Shown here piece by piece: positions 1,964 to 41,579 of a DNA stretch of 64,000 nt; the first letter of the stretch is position 1, and every line of letters starts with the position of its first letter. The notes under the pieces were generated by a model. The model worked only from the letters and a program-made list of their open reading frames with translations. It was not told the DNA's origin and searched no databases. The DNA comes from Utricularia gibba (lineage: Eukaryota > Streptophyta > Magnoliopsida > Lamiales > Lentibulariaceae). The DNA is taken from assembly GCA_002189035.1 (NCBI GenBank), contig CM007992.1:2728001-2792000 (forward strand), read 5' to 3'. The position numbers and the translations under genes were made by a program.

Positions 1964-4185
1964 ATGATGCATTTTATGGAAAACTTGTTCTGCAGTAGCA
2001 GAGTCAGAGGAAGCTGTAAAGATGCTGCATTTCCTATGTGTAAACTGATGGGAACCAAGAGATTTCTATGCCTTGTCGGGTTTCTGTTTTCATTAGTTAT
2101 ACTGCATCAGTATGTGGAATTTGGAAATGGGTATGTTTCCCCGTCTTCAATCTCCCTGCAAGAATCTCAGATTCAAGTACTGGCAGCTGTTTCCCCGTCT
2201 TCAAGCTTCGTTGAAGATTCCCATGTTCAAGTACTGGCAGCTGGAAACATTTTCAGTCAAGTGTTTGCTAACGATTCCACTGTCGTGAACTCTTCTGGTT
2301 TTATTGAATTGGAAGGTACTTCTCCATTTACAAGAGCCTTTTTGTTTTCTAGCACCAAACGTCTTTTTTCACACCATATGATTGAATCCAGGGGATCAAA
2401 AGCCTTCTGATGTTGAGAAGTATGCCACTGATTCGTCCCTTAATGTCGAAGGTGATTCGCCACTGGAGGAGGAATTGGCTTCAAATGAGGATTCAACAGG
2501 AGGTGGAACTACAAATTCTACGTCTTTGATTGAACCCAATATTGGAAAAAAGCTGCACCAAACACCAGCAGTAGACTCTCCGTCTCCCCTGTCATCCGTC
2601 CACAGTTTGATCGTGAAGAAGACTACAGAAAATGTGGCTCCACAGCCTCAAAACTGGAGCTCCATTTCCACTAATGCTTCTACACCCCCTCCTGTAAGAA
2701 AACGCAAATGGAATATGCCACCAACCAGAGTACTCTCATTGTCTGAAATGACTGATATGCTGCAAAGAGGCTATAGGTCCATGGTATGTGAGATTAACTT
2801 TATACCTTGCGCGTCAAATTACTTCATTTGATTTCATTGTTGCTTCCCTTGTTGTGATTGAAGAAACCCAAATGGCATTCACGAGCTAACAAAGAACTCC
2901 TTCATGCTAAGTCTCTGATACAAAGAGCAGAAACTCCGGGTAAAAGTAGTCGGATTGATTCGAGTGTCTACAGAAACTACTCTGCGTTCATGAGGTAGGT
3001 AGTGGCAAGAAAGCTGCATACTTCCAAGGGAAGTTCGCCTTTGTATCTCAACTTCCTGTAACTTTTTTCTTCTGCAGAAGCTATGAACTGATGGAGCAGA
3101 CACTAAAAATATATATTTACTCCGAAGGTGCAAAGCCAGTGTTCCATCAGCAGGAGCTCGGAGGAATATATGCTTCTGAAGGATGGTTCATGAAGCTGCT
3201 GGAGGAAAACAAGCATTTTGTTACTAAGAATGCTGAAGAAGCACATCTGTTTTACTTACCCTTCAGTTCACTTTTACTACAGAGAGCTTTATATGTTACG
3301 AATTCTCACAGTAGAGTCAACATGGTTCAGCATTTGGGTAGCTACATCGAGAACATCACAATGAAGTACCCTTTCTGGAATAGAACCAGGGGAGCTGATC
3401 ATTTTCTTGTAGCATGCCATGATTGGGTATGTATCGAGTGAAAAACTGATAATCTTCGTAAATGGGCACACACAGTACATTAAGTATTGCTGAACCTCTG
3501 ATTATCAGCTGACTCTTAACTTTTACAGGCACAAGTTGAAACAAGCAAGATCATGAAGAACTGTATTCGATCCTTGTGCAATGCAGAAGCGTTGAAAGGA
3601 TTCAGATTTGGGAAAGATGTGTCATTACCTGAAACATATGTGCGTCATCCAAAGTACCCTCTTCAAAGCCTAGGAGGTAAGCCTCCCAACAAAAGGCCAT
3701 TCCTAGTTTTCTTTGCTGGGAGTATGCACGGTTATCTGCGCCCGATTTTGCTTAAGCATTGGGAAAATAAGGATCCCGACATGAAAATCACTGGCGCCTT
3801 GCTTACAAACAAAGGAGCAATGAGCTACAAGGTGTACATGAAGAGTAGCAAGTACTGCATAAGTGCGAGGGGATATGAAGCCTTCAGTCCCAGAGTGGTG
3901 GAAGCGATTTTCTATGAGTGTGTACCCGTGATCTTAGCTGATAACTATGTGCCTCCGTTCTTCGAAACGCTGAATTGGGAATCATTTGCCGTTTTTGTGG
4001 CGGAGAAAGACATTCCAAACTTGAAGAAGATACTTCTATCCATACCTGAAAAGCAGTACCTTAGGATGCACCAGAGGGTTAAGATGGTTCAGAAGCATTT
4101 TCTTTGGCATAAGAACCCTGTAAAACAAGACATTTTTCATATGATACTGCACTCAGTATGGCACACAAGGGTTTCCCAGATGTGA
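1964..4185 (+). CDS. GT47 exostosin-family glycosyltransferase (At5g03795-like)
   Basis: Five exons fit GT-AG rules and codon phase: 1964-2315, 2392-2783, 2864-2994, 3078-3426 and 3529-4185 (TGA), giving 626 aa. The product resembles plant GT47 type II Golgi membrane enzymes that add sugars to cell-wall polymers. The substrate cannot be read from sequence. A hydrophobic signal anchor lies at residues 34-47 after a short cytosolic tail. Next comes a low-complexity Ser/Thr/Pro stem to about residue 240, then the exostosin domain from about residue 297. That domain contains EQTLKIYIYSEG, EGWFMKLLE, FFAGSMHGYLRP, ARGYEAFSPRVVEAIFYECV and DNYVPPFFETLNWESFAV, all typical of the family and uninterrupted. 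Length is slightly above the usual 450-620 aa. The stem holds an internal duplication (SPSS...QVLAA twice, about residues 59-92). The start could instead be the next ATG, one codon downstream, or Met29. The family is secure; the first-exon boundaries are a model. Confidence 0.88.
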
Positions 4186-20300: not shown

Positions 20301-23300
20301 CCTTGAATAGAGGTAAATGAGCTTGAATAGTTAATTATGGAGGGAATTATTACGAATCATATGATGCTTGTACCCATGACTTCCTCAAAAGAGAGACTGT
20401 AGCCGTCCTGGGATTAGATATTCATCCTCAAGCAAAACGCTCTATCTGACTGGCTACTAACAAAGCCAAAATCACCTCTTTCAAATGAGTAGAAGATGTT
20501 ATCTTACAACTAGGAGAATTTTAGGAGAAGTATGATTTCACAGTCATCGATAAGTTACACTGCGATGTTATTTTGGGAATTAAGTGTTAAATGAAGATGG
20601 TAGACGTGACCCTAAATTTTCAGAAGAAACGCATGATATTTGAGCAACAAGAAAGGAAATATACTTTGATTGGCATTCAGCAAGCCCTTCCCAAGCCTTC
20701 CTGTTTTTTCATGAACCTCATCATTGAGTTAGTGCAACAATATAATGAGATCTTTTAAGAGCCGATGTCACTTCCTCCCTCACATGCTTGTGATCATCGC
20801 ATTCTTATTGAACTAGGAGCCTTATTGATGGTTCTCTCACCTTAACTGATAGCTTACCTTATGAAACTGAAAATTGAAAAACAATGCCACAAGATGCTAG
20901 CTAAGGGCATCATCAGGCCTTCCTCTTTCTCCTTTGCCTCACCGATCACTTTAGTTGCCAAAGCTGAGGGGACTTGGAGGCTATGCGATTACTACCGCCG
21001 ACTAAATAAAATCACAGTCCATGTGAAGTTTTCAATCCCCATTATTGAGGAGCTTTTGAAGGAACTCAGAGGCACTAGATTCTTCTCTAAGCTAGACCTT
21101 CGTACGAGATTCCATCAAGTGAGAATGCCCATAGATTCTATCGAGAAGACGACCATATGCACCCATGCCGGTCATTTTGAGTATTTAGTGATGCCCTATG
21201 GGTTGATCAATGCACCCTCTATCTTTCAACACTTGATGAATGAGGTATTTCATGATATGCTGAGGAAATTTGTCCTAGTTTATTTCGATCACATCCTTGT
21301 CTACAGCCTCCCGTTCTTGAAGCACATGATGCACTTGGGAAAGGTGTTCCAACAGTTGAATGAGAGCCATCTGTATCTTAAGGGCTCCAAGTGTGCTTTC
21401 TTGAAATCTAAAGTTAAATATTTGAGGCATGTTGTATCCACTAGAGTAGTAGAGACAAATCTATCCAAGCTTGTGTCAGATCCGATCCCTCAGGATCTGA
21501 CCAAACTAAAATCATTCCTTAGTTTGCTAGCTACTACTGTAGATTTATTAAGAATTATGGATTAGTGGTCATGCCTCCCACAACACTATTGTGAAGAAAT
21601 AACTTTATTTGGAGTCCAGCAACCATTCAAGCTTTCGCACAGGTCAAGGAACTTCTAATATCAACACCCATTTTGATGCTTCCAGATTTCAATAGACTGT
21701 TTGTTATTGAGTGCGATGCATGAAATGTCGATTTAGGAGCTGTCTTAATGCAGGATGAACATCCTGTCTCTTATTTCAATCGGTCACTCCCTGAATCACA
21801 ATGAAGATTACCCACATATGAGAAGGAATTCGTTGCCTTAGCCAAAGCTATCCACCATTGGCGATCATATCTTTATGGGGACAAAATTCATTGTGTGAAT
21901 GGATCACTGCCCATTGAAATTTCTCCTGGATCAGCAGCTTCATATGCTGCCACAACAACATTGGGATACTCATTTACAATAGAGTATAAGGCTGGAAAGA
22001 CCAACCGAGAAGCAGATGCATTATCCTGAAAATGTGAAATTCTAGAAACCTCTGCAGCAATACTTTTTTTCACTATTCTTGATGCTCTACATGTAGCTCA
22101 TGAGGAACAGTAGAAATACCCTGAGTTCATCTCTCGTTTCCAACATAACCTGGTTAATGGGATACTATATTTTAAACGACTGGTTGCTTTACCCCCTAGT
22201 CAGAGTTGATCTCAACTCTCGTGACTCAGATGCACAATTTATATCATGAAGGCATTGGCAAAACTCTTCATGGACTCAAGCAGGATTATTATTCGAATGG
22301 CATGAAGAAAACTGTAATTGTGGTTGTGAAATCTTGTCTCAACTGTTAGCAAAATAATGTGGAAACCATGCAACTACTTGCCTTTTACAGCCCCTACCCA
22401 TCCCTTCCGCAATCTGGTTGAATATATCTATGGATTTAATTGTGGCGTTACCTAAATCTCAAGGGTTCTTCGTGATTATGGTAGTGATTGATAGACTATC
22501 TAAAATGCCATTTTATGGCCTTAAAACGAGGTTTCACGACAAAAAAAGCTACTCAAATTTTCTTCAACAATATCTTCAAACTACATGGTCTTGCCCAGGA
22601 AATTATCAATGACCATCTGGTTTTTACCTATTGATTTTGTTAAGAACTCTTCAAACTCAATGGTACTCGACTCCTTTTTGGCTCAACCTACCACCTGCAA
22701 TCGAATGGCCAGATGGAGGTCATGAATCATGTCATGAATCATGTCCTGAATCATGTCCTGAATCTTACCTCCAAGACTTCTCTAGTCTCAACCCTCATAA
22801 TTGGTGCTCTCGGCTATCCTAGGCATAATACGCCTATAATTCTAGCAACCACTACTCAATTCACATGTCACTTTTTGAGGCTGTTTATGGGAGAACACCC
22901 CTACTAGTCAACAATATCACTCGAAGGAGGCAACTTCTAAGGATTTGAATTTGTTGCTACACAAGAGATCTACTATGTTAGTCATCTTGAAACATCACAT
23001 TAAAGCTACTCAAGACTGCATGAGAGCTCCGCCTTCATCACCTGCATCAAATGTATGTCTGGGAGCAATCCCCATCCAAATTAGGACCATGCTATCATGG
23101 ATATTTTCAAGTGGAGGAGTGTGTCAGTGTTACTATTTACCGGCTGAAATTGCCACCAACCAACCGCATTCATCCCGTTTTCCATGTTTCTCTATTGAAA
23201 TTCTCAGGTACTCCCCTAGTGACTCACCTCCAATGGATCCCACCGATGTGTATTGCCCATAATCTATTCCCGATGCTCGATGCCAAGGAGCATGGATCAC

Positions 23301-30702: not shown

Positions 30703-31638
30703 TTAAGAAGTTTGGCCGGATGAGCCCTTCAAACTTCGAAAATTCTTCTTCAGTTCAGAGACTCTCTTCATACAGGCAGATTTCGTTTTCCCGGGTACAG
30801 AAGCAGCAATTTTCTCCCACCGTAGAGGGGCGTCCTTGGGAAATGCCTTGAGTGCATTCAGCAATGCTAAGTCCTCATTTGCGCACCACTCATCGCCCAT
30901 CTTTGTTTCTTCTGTTTCCTGATTCGTGTGTGTCTCAATTGGATCACTGCCTTGTTCTAGAAAGCGTTTGTCCACTGGCTTTCTTTGCTGCAGAAACTTC
31001 TTGTAAGAGTCTTCATCGTTTGGGTTCCTCGTGCCCAAATCTTTAGCCTTTTGCACCACGAACTCCACTTTGAATCTCCCGTTGAAACACCTAGCTATGT
31101 CCTCCCATCGCCCGGGTTTCCCAACTGGGTGTTTCTCCATTGATCTCTTAAGCAGCTTGTCGTCGGCTTCGCTCCATTCCTCAGATTTGTATTCAATCAA
31201 GGGTTCCTCGTTTCGGATTGACACGGAAGGAGTCGGATTCGCCGAGGATCCGCCAGATTCGGATGATTCGCTTTTAGCGGAGGGGTTTTGGGAGGATGAT
31301 GATTTCTTGGCTGATTTCCTCGTAGGTTTTTCATCCGGAAGAATGTCGGGTGTTTCCTTGTGTCTGAGAGGTGGGCCGATTCCGACACGTATGTCGCCGG
31401 CAGTGAGAGACGGCGGAGCAAATGGACCGAGAAGAAGTGAAACGGAGAGCCAGAGGAGAAGTGATTTGAAGGGCTCGGAGGTGTTGAAGACAAGACTTAG
31501 GATCAGCAGTGAGGAAGCGAGCGAAAAAAAGATAGTCGGCCGATGGAGAGGCGACGCCGGGCGTGGCGGCGCCGACGGCTTGGATTGCAGGAAGGCTCTC
31601 GACGGTCTCCCCACAAAGTCCTCATCAACGAACTCCAT
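30703..31638 (-). CDS. MAMYB: Membrane-anchored MYB transcription factor
   Basis: A single uninterrupted ORF of 311 aa, close to Arabidopsis maMYB (At5g45420). That protein is described as an ER-membrane-anchored R2R3-like MYB needed for root-hair growth, released to act in the nucleus. Two hydrophobic segments lie at residues 34-52 and 57-73, followed by a basic, Ser-rich linker (about 85-140). Two SANT/MYB repeats follow: 152-201 (EEWSEADDKLLKRSMEKHP, GRWEDIARCF) and 249-302 (EWCANEDLALLNALKAFP, RWEKIAASVPGKTKSACMKR). The second repeat has the DnaJC2/ZRF-like pattern seen in this family. The ATG used is the first in frame. No frame damage is seen. It lies about 430 bp from a MULE whose left end could influence its promoter. 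Confidence 0.9.
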   Translation of the reverse strand: MEFVDEDFVGRPSRAFLQSKPSAPPRPASPLHRPTIFFSLASSLLILSLVFNTSEPFKSLLLWLSVSLLLGPFAPPSLTAGDIRVGIGPPLRHKETPDILPDEKPTRKSAKKSSSSQNPSAKSESSESGGSSANPTPSVSIRNEEPLIEYKSEEWSEADDKLLKRSMEKHPVGKPGRWEDIARCFNGRFKVEFVVQKAKDLGTRNPNDEDSYKKFLQQRKPVDKRFLEQGSDPIETHTNQETEETKMGDEWCANEDLALLNALKAFPKDAPLRWEKIAASVPGKTKSACMKRVSELKKNFRSLKGSSGQTS

Positions 31639-32055: not shown

Positions 32056-32066
32056 TTGAGTATGAT
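32056..32066. repeat. Left 11-bp target-site duplication of the MULE
   Basis: TTGAGTATGAT at 32056-32066 is identical to 40401-40411 and directly abuts the inverted termini at both ends. Mutator-like elements typically produce 9-11 bp duplications. Confidence 0.88.
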
Positions 32067-32260
32067 GAAAAAGCAATATAAATAATATTATTCACTAAAA
32101 TCATTATATTAATAATGTTATGCGCCACTAGTAATGACGCTTTGATATGCTCCATCATTGATGGTGCCTTAGATAAGACACTGTTCGTGATAGCGCTTTA
32201 AATTTGCTAAACTCATACTTCTCCTTCTATATATATCTTACATCTTCACAATTTTTTTCA
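32067..32260. repeat. Left terminal inverted repeat of the MULE
   Basis: About 194 bp. It pairs with the right arm through TAATATAAATAATATT, TAGTAATGACGC versus TAGTAATAGCG, CATCATTGATGGTGCC and the inner ACTCATACTTCTCC and TCTTACATCTTC. Contains a TATA-like TCTATATATAT at 32226-32236 that could drive the transposase. Confidence 0.8.
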
Positions 32261-32754
32261 TTCATCTACAAAGTTGAGTAGAATCGGAGTTGAAGAAAAT
32301 TTTGATAATATTGTTTCTTTATTTTATAATTTTTTATTTAATTTTTTTATATTTCATAATAATTATACAATAATTGATTACATATGTTTGTTTTACTATT
32401 TCAGAATGGATAAATACACTAATGATTTTTTTTATTTTTTAGGAATGTCATCCGATTTGCCTTACAATGAGGGTGAAAGTTTGCATACTCCTTCATGGCC
32501 TTGCACCAATATACCAAATGTCAATTATGGAGGTACTTATTTTATTACATATGTTAAGACTTATCCATTTTTTATATTTGTAATAATTAATTAAATTGGA
32601 GGTATATCTCCGAGTCTTCAATTATCATTATCTTTAAACCATGATAACAATCCAAGTGTGAACGTGGCTGAAGGATTCCCTATAGAAGGTAATTTTAGTG
32701 AGATTAAGTTTTAATATATGAAATTATTATTATTAATTTTTTTTTTAAGATATG

Positions 32755-34744
32755 GTCGACCTTGATGATGATGGTGGAGACACCCACTTGAGTGAGGATT
32801 CTGAAGCCCCACCAGCAAATGTTTGTGAGGACGAAGCACCAAAGACGGGAATTGAGGCACCTCGTGTAGTACAATTGCCCGGATCTCGCTCTTGATGATT
32901 CTCTAGGGTGTTTTGTGAGGGAGGAATACCCTCTATCCAAAACAATCCGGTAAACACTTTCGTATCCGAGGAATTTAAATATGGTGGCAAATATAGGCGA
33001 TACAATGAGAAGGTACATGTGCTGAATAAGGGAATCGCACTTGCTAGTAAAGTTCATTCCCAATATTATGTTGCCCACTATTATATAAAACGAGGATATG
33101 AATTCATCGTTCTTGTTAGTCAGCCCACATTATGGCAAGGCAAATGTGCTCGTGCTAACATGGATCCTAAGTGTTATTGACGTATAAAGATTATGCGATC
33201 TGTACATGATGGAGTTTGGCAAGTATCGATCTGTGACTTTCCACATACTTGCATGACATCGCAACCTTTCCGGTTTATTCATTGGATATGAACTTATGCA
33301 TACTGCACATAGAGAAGGAGGTATAGTTTAAATATTTCTTAATTTTTTTTACATAGTTTATGTTTTTAATAACTTTTCTTTGTTGTAGAGAGTAAGGTTG
33401 CATATGCTCGAAAATGTATTTTTGAAAAATATCAAAAGAAGATTACTTATGAACGTGCATGGTGCGGTGCTCAACTTGCTTTTGAGTTGGTCTATGGAAC
33501 ATGGGAATCATCAGTGCAAAAGCTACCTGCATTATTTTTGGCAATCACGCAAGCCAATCCGAGTACAGTGGTCTCATGAGACTGCTTTCCCACTATTGTA
33601 GAAGAGGATCATAAAATCATGCACTATGTTTTTTGGGCTTATGACCACAAGTTGCTCGTGACCAAAGGATCGAGGTAGTCACATTCTACCGTTAGCCTAT
33701 GCATTCATCGACGAGGAGAGTAGAGATGCATATCTTTGGTTTATTGATTTTCTAGATGAACATTTTTTTTTGTTGAGGCCAGGGTAGCATAATCTTGGAC
33801 AGAGCTGCAGGCATGCTTGCAACTGTGAGGAATTACGCTGGGTTTCAAGAAGTTTGGAAGCAAAATACTTAAGCAAATGGCTTATAATCCCGAAGCGACC
33901 TATGATCCAAGAAAGATGATGATGTACCCCGAAAGGATTCAAAAGAAAAATCCGATGGCCTATGCATGGTACTTTGAGCCGGAAAATGGTCCATATGAGA
34001 GATGGGCACTCTCATATGATTCAGGCAGATGCTACGAGAATCTAACTTCTAATGCAACAGAGATCATGAACAACGTTCTCAAGGTTTGTCGTCGGTTTCC
34101 CTCAGATACAATTGTTGAGACTACTTTGTGCAAGTCAGCTACCATCCTCCGCGAGCGTAAAGATTAGATCACCTCGATGACAAAAAACCACCAGGTATTA
34201 TGTTTGAGGTTACTTAATTTCAAGTATTTTTAATGTTTTATTATTTTACTTTATGTATAACACTTGTTATCTATGTATGCAAGCACTCTCAGATGAGGCA
34301 AAACATTTTTGGGAGAGAGCACGTGAACGAGCTAAGACACACAATGTACGTCAATTCGAGACGACGGATATGTCATTTCAGATTGAAGTCGTCAGTCGTG
34401 GGAAAGGGAGACGCTATCATTATAGAGTGATGCTTTGTGATCAGACTTGTAGTTGCGGAAAGTGGACTAAGTATGGTGTTCCATGTTCTCATGTTGTTAC
34501 TGTTGCTAAAAAGGTGAAGGTAAGTGCCGACGATCTCATGATTAGTCTTGATATATTGCATGCGTTGCGACAAACGTATAGTGAAGAGGTTTTTAACCCT
34601 ATTGACTCTGATACCTATGTCTCTTACTCAGGCTGGACCCTATACCATGATCCTACATGCCATCGGACTATTGTTGGCAGACAGCATCACACAAGAATAC
34701 ACAACGAGATGGATTGGGGAGTGAATCCACCACCAACAGAATAG
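32755..34744 (+). pseudogene. MuDR-type transposase pseudogene
   Basis: Islands on the plus strand appear in canonical order. The MuDR N-terminal domain is at 32960-33260 (KVHVLNKGIALASKVHSQYY, LWQGKC, VWQVSICDFPHTCMTSQ). A linker has GTWESSVQKLPALFLAI. Part of the DDE domain is at 33650-33770 (ILPLAYAFIDEESRDAYLWF). The C-terminal region is at 33880-34110 (NPMAYAWYFEPENGPYERWA, NLTSNATEIMNNVLKV). The SWIM zinc finger is at 34427-34500 (CSCGKWTKYGVPCSHV). The segment normally carrying the first catalytic Asp (VISIDGTHLYGKY-like) is deleted between FWAYDHKLLV and the SHILPLAYAF island. Several stops and a shifted reading frame confirm inactivity. At least two introns are retained. Confidence 0.85.
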
Positions 34745-35089
34745 TCTGATAAATTTGGTTTTTTCTGGTTTGAACTTTGATTAATTGCTAGTTGGAGTTA
34801 TTTATTTTGGATATTTTATTTATGGTTGTTTTCAAACTACTTTCATAAAAATAGCTTATTTGATAACAACAAAACACATTTACTCATGCCTATGTTGCCG
34901 TGATGATGATGGACGGGTCACATCATGTGGACCACTATATGACGGTGGAAATGGGAATCTCCAATACCCATGTCCCCTCCCAACACTAGACTGGCTCGAT
35001 CCTGCATGGGGCAATATGAACTCTAGGTAAGGAGGCGGCCAAGGATATGACGGAGTCATAGCCAAGAGTGGTGGTCGCACATAGGAAGA

Positions 35090-35094
35090 AGAAG
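35090..35094. repeat. Target-site duplication of the Athila-like element (imperfect)
   Basis: AGAAG at 35090-35094 and AGGAG at 38401-38405 flank the element with one mismatch of five. Confidence 0.55.
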
Positions 35095-35166
35095 TGATAA
35101 ACGGAAATTTTAGCATATCGTTGCAATAAAAGCAAACTTCCATATCAAATACATTTATAATCCCTA
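35095..35166 (-). repeat. 3' LTR remnant (terminal 72 bp)
   Basis: About 68 of 72 bases match the corresponding end of the 5' LTR at 36998-37069 (shared AAATTTTAGCATATC and AATAAAAGCAAACTTCC). It is the LTR's terminal end, with the remainder deleted. Confidence 0.85.
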
Positions 35167-36780
35167 ATATACTTCAAAAGATCAATTTCACCTTCCCCTT
35201 CTCTTTTACCTTTGGTTTTGACATACACAACTGCTTCAAATATTTGACACTCTTTGGGATAAGATCAATATACTCCAAAAGAGTCAAGTTCAATTAAGTG
35301 TTTCCCAATGCTTTCAACATTTTTTCTTTCTCAGTTTGCTCTTCTTTTGGCTTCAGCTTTCCTGGAAAAGAAGGCTGGGTCACCTTCATCGTGACAAGTT
35401 CTGGTAATATTTCAACTTCATCCTCACTCTATACAACAACTTCGTACTCCTCTGTCTCGTTCTCCTTAGTCTCAGTCTGGACTAATTCTCGTCCAGGCTA
35501 CTCATTTTCGCTCCTAAGTGTCATGGCACTGATGTTCGGCCCTCCACTGGAATTTGGATTTCGCTTGGGTCGAGATGGCAGACTCTCTTTCTGTTTCATG
35601 TCTCCAAGCTCTGCTGCCAACTGACTCACTTGAACCTTCAAATTCTGGATTGCTTGTTGATTTTCAGCTTGATTCTTGATTGATTGCACCATGAAAGTCT
35701 TCACCATTTCTTCCAATGAATTTCCAGAATTCAGTCCATCATTTCCTTGATTTGAGGCTTGAAATGGCTGCTGGGTGTGTTGATTTTGCCTTCGAAATGG
35801 AGGTGCCTGATAAGATCTTTACTCCTGAAAATTTTGCTGCCCCATGGTTGAGCTTTTTCCTTTGTAAGCATTTTCGTTGTTGCTCCAACGAAAATTTGGA
35901 TGATCCCTCCAGCCTGGGTTGTAAGTATTTGAATATGAATCATATTTCTTCCTCTGTTGAGGCTCCAAATATCCTTTAGCCTTAACATGCTCTTTTTCAA
36001 ATAAATCTGGACACTTGTCCACAACATGCCCTGTTTTGTGACAGTTTCTACATGGCATGTTCTTAGCCTAGAATAAGAATAGCTCCTTCATCATTTCAGA
36101 CATAGCAGCAACATTTTTCGTGAGTTCATTCTCTGAAATCCTAGACTTACCCTCCACTTCGTATACTCTCTTGTTTAAGGCTTGCTTCCAGATAATGTCT
36201 CGAATGCTCAGCCAACTCCTCAAGCAAGGAAAGAGCTTCGGTTGGTGTCTTTTTCCTTAAAAATCATCCCACCGCCAAATCTACCATGGCTCGGTCAGTG
36301 CATAGCAACCCATCATAGAAATACTTGACCAAAGCATTGGTCTGAAAACCATGGTGTGGGTAGGAACCCAAAAGATGATTAAATCTCTCCCAATATTCGT
36401 GCAATGATTCTCCACTCATTTGTTCAACATCACTAATTTCTTTTCTAATACCTTCAGCCTTGGAAGCTGGAAAATATTTGCTCAAAAACACTTTCTTCAT
36501 TCTAGCCCAATCAGTTATGCTTCTAGGCCTTAGTGAGTTAAACCACGTTTTGGCTCCTCTTACCAAAGTAAACTGGAAAGCTCTCAAACAAATTGAATCT
36601 TCAGTCATTCCAGCTCCCTTGAATGATGTGCATATTGCTATTACGTTGTCAAGATGCTCACGGGGTTCTCTCCAATTTTTCCATAAAATTTGGGCAAAAA
36701 GTTGATCATCGCCGGCTTCAGCTCATTTGCTCCATCCTCTGAAAATCTGATACATAGACCCCTGTAAGTATGATCAGCAA
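35167..36780 (-). pseudogene. Athila-like gag
   Basis: Minus-strand segments read LRAFQFTLVRGAKTWFNSLR, MKKVFLSKYFPASKAEGIRK and SGESLHEYWERFNHLLGSYP (36264-36608), the retrotransposon gag core. A CCHC zinc knuckle follows (CRNCHKTGHVVDKC, 36014-36055). An Athila-type gag tail has QVSQLAAELGDMKQKESLPS and NISAMTLRSENE (35498-35716). A few stops interrupt the frame. The coding sequence ends near 35170 at the deletion junction. Confidence 0.8.
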
Positions 36781-36976
36781 TATCTAATTCGTTCAAGGTC
36801 TTCTAAGGCTCTACCATTCTGAAATTATTGTTAGTCTCGGGTGGGAGCTGTCTCAATCTAGTTGCTTCCCTAACTCTAAACCTATTCTTGCTGATAGCTC
36901 TCTCAATTTCTGGAAGGAAAGTGAGATTACTTGCACCAGATGCATCAACTAAAAACACAAAACAATTAAACACCGC

Positions 36977-36994
36977 TCCCCGGCAACGGCGCCA
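36977..36994 (-). other. Primer-binding site, tRNA-Asp type
   Basis: The minus strand reads TGGCGCCGTTGCCGGGGA three bases after the LTR end. It is complementary to the 3' end of plant tRNA-Asp and is the site used by Athila elements. Confidence 0.88.
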
Positions 36995-36997
36995 ATT

Positions 36998-38400
36998 TGA
37001 TAAACGTAAATTTTAGCATATCCTTGCAATAAAAGCAAACTTCCGTATCAAATACATTTATAATCTCTAGTCCTAACAAAATACAAATTAATCACAAAGT
37101 GTACAATGAAATTCGGGGTCGATCACAAGGAGCTTGTGCTTGTCATGTATTTTAACAGATGCAGAATTCAAAGTAATGGTAAATTTTCGTCTAAGCTCAG
37201 ACCAACAGTGGTAAACAAGTTCGGTAAACAAGATCAGTAAACAATATCAGATCTTAACGCTAAGGTAACATGTACTAGTTCTAACTCAAAATAATACTAA
37301 GATGCCTTAAGGATCTACAGGTAGTGTGGTGCCAAAATTCCTAATTTAATCTGTCATGTTCCTACACTCACAACTTCAAATAACCTAAGTCTACCCAGGT
37401 CATTCATCATATTTTCGGCCAAGCTAGTCCTCCATATCATCACCAACCTTGCAATTAGGCTTACCCGCATGCAAAGCATATACATCTAGGTCTGCCCGGT
37501 TCTACTGGTTCTACCCCGAACTAACACCTACTGTTCCTGTCTTGATTTGTTGGCCTACCTCTAAATCAAGCATCTAAGTTGTAAAGTTATTTGTTACCCT
37601 CCTTAGGTCTACCTATGGTTTGATAGAAACAAGGGCTAAGAAACAATGATCAATTTTATTAAAACTCCTAAACCCACACCATCATGCTTCACCTTAAGAT
37701 ATTCCTAGGGTTTAGCTACTCATGCTTTGAAGGTAAAAAGTGATGGCATTAACATAAAACAATGAAAATGTTAAGAACATCGTGCAGAAGTTTGGTGCAG
37801 AAACTAAAGACATCAAAAAACTAAAAGAAAGCAGTAGAGTTCTGGTTTCCGTCTGCCACTGTTCACAGTCCGGAACAGTAGCACTGAACTGGGTCTTGAT
37901 CTTCTTCCTTCAAGCTGGAGGTTCTTCTCCAGAAAAAAAAAATCGATTTTCTTCCTCCTTCTCCTTCAATATTCTTTGTGTTCATGTTGAGGGAGAAACC
38001 CCCTTGTGTGTGTTCTGAAAATTCTGGGTGTCCTTTCCTTTTTGCGACTTCTCTCCTTCTCCTCTTTCTCTTGCCTCCCATTGTCCAATGCAAGTACATT
38101 CTTTAACAAATCTGCTGCTTCTGGCCCTGACTTGCAGACTGTCGCCATAACAGTGTACTCATTGCCCCCACAGCCTAGTGACTTACACGAAATTCAGATT
38201 TTTCCTTGATTCTTGGGTTGCTGCTAAACTCCAAAATCGGGTTAGATATGAGATGGGTTAAATCAAAGGATTTAGCCCACTAATCACACCAAAAATTATA
38301 AATTACATAAAAACATTTAAAAATATAAAATAAACACTTAAACATAATTAAAAATTTATGATTTTTCATATCCTAAAACATGAAAATTTGTGTGTTATCA
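36998..38400 (-). repeat. 5' LTR of the Athila-like element
   Basis: 1403 bp, ends TGATAA...TTATCA on the plus strand (TG...CA). It contains GGTCGATCACAAGGAG near 37117, also seen in the solo LTR at 6575-7886. No coding sequence. Confidence 0.85.
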
Positions 38401-40064
38401 AGGAGCCTCGCATGTTGATGGTCTACTTGTTGGTGCCGCATACTGCTGAAACAACTCTGCATTGAAATTCTCGTATGCTTGGTTCATGTGAACCTATGCA
38501 GGGTCATCATCACTAGGTAGCGGTGAGTGATGTGCCATGAGTGACTGGCTCAATCCAAGCTACTAGCTAAGACCCTCATATGCCTACATTGTTTCTTGAT
38601 CCCCAGCACGAAATCTATCTAGCTGTGCGATCTGAAAACAAACAAGATATTAGAAATAAGTTTGCACGATCTAACTCATATTTGCACAAAGGAGTATTTT
38701 ACCGCATAAGCTATCGGCTCTGTCTCCACCTCGATATCGACTCTCGTCTTCTTCCAAGATACAACAACGCGCACGGCCTATACCAAGTCATGTACGCCGC
38801 CTTAGACACTGTAGGGATGTCATGCATCTGGAGAATGTGAGTGTGCCTAGATGCCCACAAAGCTATACGTGCAACATGCTCCAACGTCCAATCAGTATCG
38901 TAGGAGTCTTTGGTAAACTTATGTTCTGCAGGATATCGATCTGGAGGGAGTGGAATAACACAGCCACATCCAAACTAACGAGAAACTCAATCAGAGCAAT
39001 GGGGCTCCACTTGAGATGCATATATCATCGGACCGGCATACTGCCAAAGCATACGATCACATTCTGGAACACACAGTAAATGTATATCCTCATAAGGAGT
39101 TCACTCAAACTGTCCGAAAAACAATGAAATGTGTGTCATGACAATATACACAGTTCAATGAAAAATAAATTTATATGATAACAACGTACCTCGTCATCCC
39201 CGCAAACCAAATCAAGTGTGTCATGGATTGGCTCTAACTTGTGGGAGACCACATTTGAGTCTTGAGCCAACCTTTGAACCTCCAACAATGAAGGTGTCTA
39301 AAAGCCAGTCATAATGAATTGTGAATCACCAACAATGAAGGTCTCCTTGGGCTCCCATCCAAACTATTCAACACATAGTTCGCATTTTGTGCAAGTGCGA
39401 ACCATCGATATACCGTCAATACGAAGACCCCACAACATAGAAACATCTTGGAGTGTGATCGTGGCCTCTCCACAAGGTAAGAAGAAGGTGTGCATCTCTT
39501 GACGCCATATCTCTACTAAAGCTGTGAGTAAATTGGGGTCTGGTTCTATTCATAATGTCTTAAGAATTCCATAAAAACCCCAATCATCGAGATATTTCAC
39601 AGTCCTCTCCACCCATGATCTGCCTGTCAAGAATTTGTAGGTGTGTTTGAATTGCATCGTTTTACGGTATGATCTATGTAATAGACCATAAGTAATGTGC
39701 TGCTGTTACATATCCAACAGGCTCGGATCCTCATGACCATAAACTCTTAAACGTGAGTATATGTCAATCTACAAAAAAAAACATTATATATTTAATAAGA
39801 AATAATATAATAAATTAAATATATTAGTCAATAATAAAACAATAATAAAAACATATTATTCATAAAAAAATCTTACGTCAATGTACAAAAAAAAATTAAA
39901 AACAAATTGATAAATATCATATATGTAATAAAAAAATTATGACAAATTAATAAACAAAATAATTAATTCAAAAAATTAAAATGTCAAAACTTACGAATAT
40001 AAAAAAATATAAAAAAATATAATAATTTTACCCTTGTAATCAAAATGTTTTTTTATCACAATTT

Positions 40065-40400
40065 TACACTTGTAAGATATGAAGAACGATGAGGGTATTT
40101 ATAAGGAGAATGTAATAATAGTATGAGTAAGCATGCTTGGGGAATGGGAGGGGAGCGTGGGCCATCATTGATGGTGCTACGCACCAAGGCACCATCAATG
40201 ATGGTGTGATTCTGTGTGGACTCAGAGGCACCATCATTGATGGTGTTCTCCAGCATACAGTTTTAAAGTACTATCATTAGTGGCATGTATTTCTAAAGTG
40301 GCATCAATGATAGCGTGATAGACAAAACGCTATTACTAATCGCGTATATTATTATTAATATATTATATTTATTAATCAATATTATTTATATTAATTTTTC
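40065..40400. repeat. Right terminal inverted repeat of the MULE, with amplified palindromes
   Basis: About 336 bp, pairing with 32067-32260 but longer. It holds repeated copies of a palindrome (CACCATCAATGATGGTG and variants near 40160, 40189, 40230, 40272 and 40302), whereas the left arm has one. A minus-strand TATA-like CTTATAAATAC at 40095-40105 would face the PMD gene. Confidence 0.8.
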
Positions 40401-40411
40401 TTGAGTATGAT
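40401..40411. repeat. Right 11-bp target-site duplication of the MULE
   Basis: TTGAGTATGAT, identical to 32056-32066. Confidence 0.88.
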
Positions 40412-41579
40412 AAGTAGCTTTTAGAATATGTTCTAACTTGTTAACTTTACTTCTTAAAAAAAGTAGAAGTAAAAATAAATAAGAATAATGCATGATTCTA
40501 CTAACTACTTCTAACTTTTTAATTAAAATTATGTTCTGAAAAAACTTTTGAAATCTTTTATTTTTCAAAAATAAAAATAATTTTGTTCTAAAACATATTT
40601 CTATAAAAAAAATACTTTTGAAATTGTACTACAAAAATTATTTTGAAAAAAGCAAGTAATAATTTAATTTTACTTCTTATTTCTACCTTTCTAAAATAAT
40701 TTTAAAAAATAAAAATAATTTCTAAAATTTTTTTAGAACATTACATAATTCTACTTCTTGCAAAATTTATTAAATATGAGAAGTAACTTACTTATTATTT
40801 CTAATTCTCATTGTAAATTTATAAGATTATACTTCATTACAAAAATATATTTAATATTTTATCCTATTTCCAATAATTCTCTTCCCTTGACAATGCTTTA
40901 AGGTTTAGGAATCACATACCTAATTGAGATTTCAATCTTGAAAATTGAACAATATGCTTCTTAGTAGTGACATTTGTTAGAGGTTCTTTGAAATTCGGAA
41001 GATAATAGCTATATTTTTGTTACTCCAATTCTATTTCATTTTTTCAATCGTAATCTTAATGAGGTTTTGAATTGGAATCCTTGCTTTTTAATCAGGCTAG
41101 AGAGAAAGTGGTGAATTATGGCTGAGTTTTTTTTTTAAATTGCATTTAAGGTTGCTACTTTTGTTTTCATTCTTCTTATTTTTCTTAATTAGGTTTTACA
41201 TTTATTTTGGAAAAGTACATATCTTGTTAGTCTTAGGATAGAATGTGATTTTAAATTGGAAACTTGTTGTATCAAGTACGTTGTACTACGTTGTAAAAGA
41301 CTGTTTTTTTCATGTATATATCTAATGAATATATAAATAATGTATATGACTTCTTGAAATTTGCTTTCAAAAAAAATTTCTGGGTTGTAATTTTACATTG
41401 TGGGATATTGCAAAAAATAACAAATAGTGTGACTTTTATGACTTCTTCTACGATTAATACTGTTGTAATTGTTTCTACATTAATTTATTTTCTTGTGTTA
41501 CTCCATTAATATGGATATTTCTTTAGCTGATTCTAACATATTTCCTTAATTTTTTCCTTTGTTTTGGTTTTGTAACGTA

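Follow-up and report, generated by a model that had tools for sequence, protein, structure and literature searches.

A degenerate MuDR-type MULE with a convergent plant mobile domain gene, and signs of selection on that gene across its family

Results

Structure of the locus

We analyzed a 64-kb stretch of DNA, referred to here as the window, in which a MULE lies between two copies of an 11-bp sequence. The 11-mer TTGAGTATGAT was found in the 64-kb window at just two places, 32056 to 32066 and 40401 to 40411, which confirms the target-site duplication claimed in an earlier note on this DNA, down to the exact coordinates. Adjoining these two copies, positions 32067 to 32144 pair in inverted orientation with positions 40323 to 40400 over 78 bp at 77% identity (blastn E 7e-10). 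The inverted termini that the note described are therefore real, and they pair well beyond the approximately 20 bp that had been set beforehand as the limit for failure. The features of the element are as follows.

32056 to 32066, no strand: target-site duplication, left copy TTGAGTATGAT, same letters as 40401 to 40411
32067 to 40400, no strand: MULE copy, nested retrotransposon remnant included
32067 to 32144, + strand: left terminal inverted repeat, the transposase arm (pairs with the right end; family matches)
32152 to 32164, + strand: subterminal dyad motif CCATCATTGATGG
32228 to 32234, + strand: TATA-like box of the transposase arm (consensus match only)
32749 to 33180, + strand: transposase remnant, N-terminal exon, limits approximate (tblastn against sister copies)
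33412 to 34194, + strand: transposase remnant, stretch corresponding to the MULE-domain exon, with a broken frame (sister L013 scores for PF10551)
34283 to 34741, + strand: open C-terminal exon of the transposase, including the SWIM finger (PF04434, E 6e-8)
34880 to 35094, − strand: last PMD exon, portion downstream of the nested element and ending at the stop (frames compared with sister L015)
35095 to 38400, − strand: truncated gypsy-type LTR-retrotransposon remnant (72-bp direct repeat, gag PF03732)
38401 to 38640, − strand: last PMD exon, upstream of the nested insertion, approximate (frames compared with sister L015)
38753 to 39258, − strand: plant mobile domain (PMD) remnant, middle exons (PF10536, E 3e-5)
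39295 to 39756, − strand: PMD remnant, part of the first exon, 4 stops (PF10536, E 3e-18)
40097 to 40103, − strand: TATA-like box of the PMD arm (consensus match only)
40162 to 40243, − strand: three subterminal dyad motifs, starting at 40162, 40192, and 40231
40323 to 40400, − strand: right terminal inverted repeat, the PMD arm (pairs with the left end; family matches)
40401 to 40411, no strand: target-site duplication, right copy, matching the left copy at 11 of 11 positions

The domain matches PF04434 and PF10536 bear out a SWIM transposase remnant on the + strand and a PMD gene on the − strand, as the note had it. The N-terminal exon of the transposase aligns to sister copies over 142 of 142 codons with 2 stops (tblastn). 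PF10551, the MULE transposase domain, reaches E 6e-13 in sister L013; in a domain search, it scores nothing in the window copy, where the transposase is too decayed. For the PMD gene, all four exon pieces are open in sister L015 (586 codons). A PDB search with one host PMD returned no relative of solved structure. We considered a mosaic origin of the window copy, with a transposase half more distant than the PMD half, and dropped it because the frameshifts crossed in the comparison inflate the distance.

The last PMD exon is broken by a retrotransposon remnant that the note overlooked, and the same exon is uninterrupted in sister L015. The remnant consists of one LTR of approximately 1.4 kb (36998 to 38400, TG...CA) and a gag domain on the − strand (PF03732, E 4e-20) adjoining the primer-site-like GGCGCCGTTGCCGGGG; the other LTR is reduced to a 72-bp stub (35095 to 35166). 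The direct repeat of 72 bp, at 35095 and 36998, is 94% identical, so that stub and full LTR differ by approximately 6%. This retrotransposon would have landed in the last PMD exon of the MULE. The 8.3-kb span given earlier for the MULE stands, but its size does not: once the 3.3-kb remnant (35095 to 38400) is subtracted, the MULE proper measures 5.0 kb, against 5.3 to 5.7 kb for full-size sisters, and portions of its PMD and transposase exons have been lost. Elsewhere in the window, positions 20861 to 21565 encode an RVT_1 reverse transcriptase of another retrotransposon.

The two genes end tail to tail, the transposase at 34741 and the PMD at 34880. Each does start from its own TATA-bearing arm, as had been proposed; both read inward from those arms, which makes them convergent rather than divergent. 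The transposase would be driven from one arm and the antisense, convergent PMD gene from the other. The family has the features of a MuDR-type MULE, namely a target-site duplication (11 bp in the window copy, against the 8 to 11 bp typical of the superfamily), terminal inverted repeats, PF10551 (in sister copy L013), and a SWIM finger. We are confident that positions 32067 to 40400 are a degenerate, two-gene, terminal inverted repeat-bearing MULE of the plant MuDR type with an antisense convergent PMD. A Pack-MULE, which has a host gene fragment inside and no transposase, does not fit, since a transposase remnant is present.

On the left side of the element, a Myb/SANT-domain gene occupies positions 30703 to 31638 on the − strand; its start is approximately 430 bp from the MULE, which occupies its upstream region. 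Insertion at this site, approximately 430 bp upstream of the gene, would have created the 11-bp duplication. The right flank (40450 to 40770) contains a MITE-like repeat with approximately 40 further copies at 72 to 83% identity, some matching both strands. The window also contains a piece of an exostosin GT47 gene at 3553 to 4185.

Copies in the host assembly

We searched the host assembly of approximately 100 Mb with the left arm, the right arm, the PMD, and the transposase C-terminus, and obtained 34, 29, 47, and 75 matches, respectively. The PMD loci comprised approximately 25 of the window family and approximately 6 of a related lineage, alongside 3 genic PMDs at low copy number and 1 unplaced match. 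The genome search suggested in the earlier note thus found the arms at many loci, with clean duplications of 10 to 12 bp at six sister copies and a match of 10/11 at three more. Two copies with intact duplications are shorter than the full-size sisters (L023, 2.7 kb; L025, 3.8 kb). Both genes were found in 21 copies; in 20 of these the PMD runs antisense to the transposase, and the exception, L038, is rearranged. Among the copies examined, none has both genes free of lesions; a family copy with an open PMD is located at C213:3313445-3319137. A search for a paralogous empty site with the joined flanks of the window copy matched only its own locus across the junction; the remaining matches were to the right-flank repeat. 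On the plastid contig C516 (L047), an accD frame beside rbcL ends early, at 204 codons, which may be an assembly frameshift or real. As for the host, rbcL gave no useful placement; plastid rpoC2 has its best score against PDB 8w9z, a tobacco structure, so that an asterid is probable.

The related lineage is a second, distant group of PMD-bearing MULEs (L031 to L035; G000 C244, C375, and C328), with MULE and PMD domains in the same antisense layout. Self-comparison found no terminal inverted repeats or ends in this second lineage. The two PMD-bearing lineages group together both in a transposase tree that includes 16 other MULE-type sequences (UFBoot 90) and in a PMD tree (UFBoot 99), and this grouping suggests one old association of PMD and transposase. 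An AU test did not reject independent PMD origins in the two lineages (p 0.41 to 0.44).

Selection on the two genes

We compared nonsynonymous and synonymous variants among copies according to how widely each variant is shared. For variants seen in one copy, N/S is near neutral in both genes (0.91 for the PMD, 1.05 for the transposase), as expected from decay after insertion. For variants common to at least three copies, most of which arose while the lineages were active, N/S is 0.50 for the PMD and 0.57 for the transposase. The difference between private and shared variants gives Fisher p values of 1.6e-5 for the PMD and 2.8e-5 for the transposase, which are indicative only, given that the copies are related. 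Median pairwise dN/dS (0.54 for the PMD, 0.60 for the transposase) is in line with the N/S of shared variants. These patterns argue that the PMD is a genuine gene of the element, under purifying selection similar to that on the transposase.

Decay of the window copy

A nucleotide tree built from the best-conserved pieces gives the window copy a terminal branch of 0.047 per site. Assuming that all of this divergence accrued after insertion, the probability of a perfect 11-bp duplication is approximately 0.36. Most stops in the family trace to one C>T or G>A change in a CGA, CAG, or TGG codon, and they recur in varying sets of copies. C>T rates are 0.19 at CG, 0.20 at CHG, and 0.08 at CHH sites, with transversions at approximately 0.04 to 0.05; the rate at CG and CHG sites is thus approximately 2.4 times that at CHH sites. 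Such an excess reads as the mark of methylated, silenced DNA, and the window copy was probably silenced and then decayed in place.

Subterminal motifs

In arms of 13 copies, 9.1 kb in all, the dyad CCATCANTGATGG was counted 24 times, and no occurrence was found in 59 kb of interiors, in 8 kb of flanks, or in shuffled arms. Its extended form CCATCAWTGATGGYGCCT has 21 occurrences in the assembly, comprising 19 in mapped family arms, 1 in a rearranged copy, and 1 unplaced, and the reversed control pattern has none in the whole assembly. Judged by this distribution, the dyad is a natural candidate binding site for a protein of the element. We also compared the arms with the Arabidopsis "DOWN" motif CATGCAGTTT (PMC9899485). 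The PMD arm of the window copy has CATACAGTTT, with one mismatch, and sister arms differ at two positions; we attribute the resemblance to chance.

Discussion

How the PMD gene entered the element

The MULE PMD and three genic PMDs have their first intron (LLQ|GT) at the same position, and with one of the genic PMDs the MULE PMD also seems to share the acceptor of the following intron. The comparison PMDs are probably host genes, judged by their open frames, their low copy number, and what is known of MAIL2 and MAIL3. In a tree with only these three genic PMDs, the one nearest to the MULE PMDs is C480 (L042). Because the intron position is common to MULE and genic PMDs, a retro-copied origin is unlikely; the simplest reading, and the most likely, is that the element took up its PMD directly from the genomic DNA of a host PMD gene containing introns. 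Capture would have preceded the split of the two PMD-bearing MULE lineages of this genome, and a single capture is favored by the bootstrap values but not by the AU test. Host-gene capture has been proposed for other PMD-bearing MULEs as well (PMC5418596).

Alternative explanations

The window copy on its own is ordinary and decayed, and its perfect 11-bp duplication next to two decayed genes could mean that it was already broken at insertion and moved in trans, as the earlier note thought probable. The deleted copies L023 and L025, whose duplications are intact, indicate either that trans-mobilization occurs in the family or that deletion came after insertion. We consider trans-mobilization of the window copy unlikely, as a duplication has an approximately 36% chance of staying intact at its private divergence (0.047 per site), and the stops stem from C>T-type changes that recur in differing sets of copies. 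The LTR stub, approximately 6% diverged from the full LTR, also points to a locus of some age, provided that the retrotransposon did not travel with the MULE. Decay in place would explain the window copy, and mobilization in trans is not needed.

As for the PMD gene, MULEs often capture host gene pieces, and the PMD might be a transduplicated fragment of this kind, a passenger of the Pack-MULE style with no role in the element. The intron position common to MULE PMD and host PMD genes would fit such a passenger, as would the broken state of the majority of copies, including the window copy. A passenger would not, however, account for the N/S of 0.50 among shared PMD variants against 0.91 among private ones, for the copy that keeps the whole PMD open, or for the place and orientation of the PMD, which are constant in 20 of 21 copies and recur in the second MULE lineage. 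Because the N/S of the PMD behaves like that of the transposase, we regard the passenger explanation as highly improbable. The same signal of purifying selection on PMD and transposase within one genome suggests instead that the PMD contributed to the spread of the element. One contribution, possible though in our view less likely than not, is that of a mudrB-like helper for transposition or integration rather than an anti-silencing factor. The PMD holds the same convergent position as mudrB of maize MuDR, and selection on it equals that on the transposase, whereas its relatives MAIN and MAIL1 are tied to TE silencing (PMC5418596, PMC7156037). mudrB has been cited as apparently required for integration (PMC6446971).

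Possible role of the PMD protein and comparison with known elements

The likeliest contribution of the PMD protein would be to help the element escape silencing, either through action on the MAIN/MAIL1-type PMD pathway or through competition with it. We hold this only tentatively, at somewhat less than even odds. Such putative anti-silencing would be comparable in effect to that of VANC in VANDAL elements. The Arabidopsis PMD proteins MAIN and MAIL1 have been linked to TE silencing (PMC5418596, PMC7156037), and VANC21 of VANDAL21 is associated with family-private motif arrays in the same orientation (PMC5735166). VANDAL/Hiun elements resemble the window family in being MULEs with an extra gene and a family-private noncoding motif array (PMC5735166), a resemblance to be taken as a lead only; in the window family, by contrast, the second gene is a PMD and the terminal inverted repeats are clear. 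We think it rather unlikely that the full combination holds, in which the PMD would be a VANC-like anti-silencing factor, derived from a captured gene of the MAIN/MAIL kind and aimed at the CCATCAWTGATGG dyads in both arms. The family-private arm motif nonetheless supplies a concrete candidate target and makes the anti-silencing idea directly testable.

In maize MuDR, mudrA and mudrB are convergent, each starting from a terminal inverted repeat. The window family has the same plan of two convergent genes, except that its second gene scores as a PMD. The link with PMD/MAIN biology that the earlier note drew is borne out, and the association of PMDs with MULEs is already published (PMC5418596, PMC6446971). 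Dupeyron et al. (2019) reported an antisense PMD in most MULEs of the MUDR clade, and several further clades in plants have one as well (PMC6446971). Their MUDR, MUDRAVI2, MDR, and MULE-Solanaceae_1 clades share with the window family a SWIM transposase, terminal inverted repeats (in most cases), a target-site duplication of approximately 9 to 10 bp, and an antisense PMD. An antisense PMD in a MuDR-clade MULE has therefore been known since 2019, and the evidence for a selected gene is the addition made here. Relative to those clades, our data describe a family copy by copy within one genome and add a signal of selection on its PMD, together with a private subterminal motif array. In grasses and Amborella, Ikeda et al. 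(2017) described MULEs whose PMD is fused to the transposase, and they speculated on anti-silencing without a test (PMC5418596). The PMD of these PMD-C MULEs is akin to MAIN/MAIL, and host capture was proposed for it, likewise as here; those elements encode transposase-PMD fusions, whereas the PMD of the window family is a separate convergent gene. Nicolau et al. (2020) stated that eudicots have mainly genic PMD-C (PMC7156037). In the genome analyzed here, that of a likely eudicot, MULE-borne PMDs outnumber genic PMDs.
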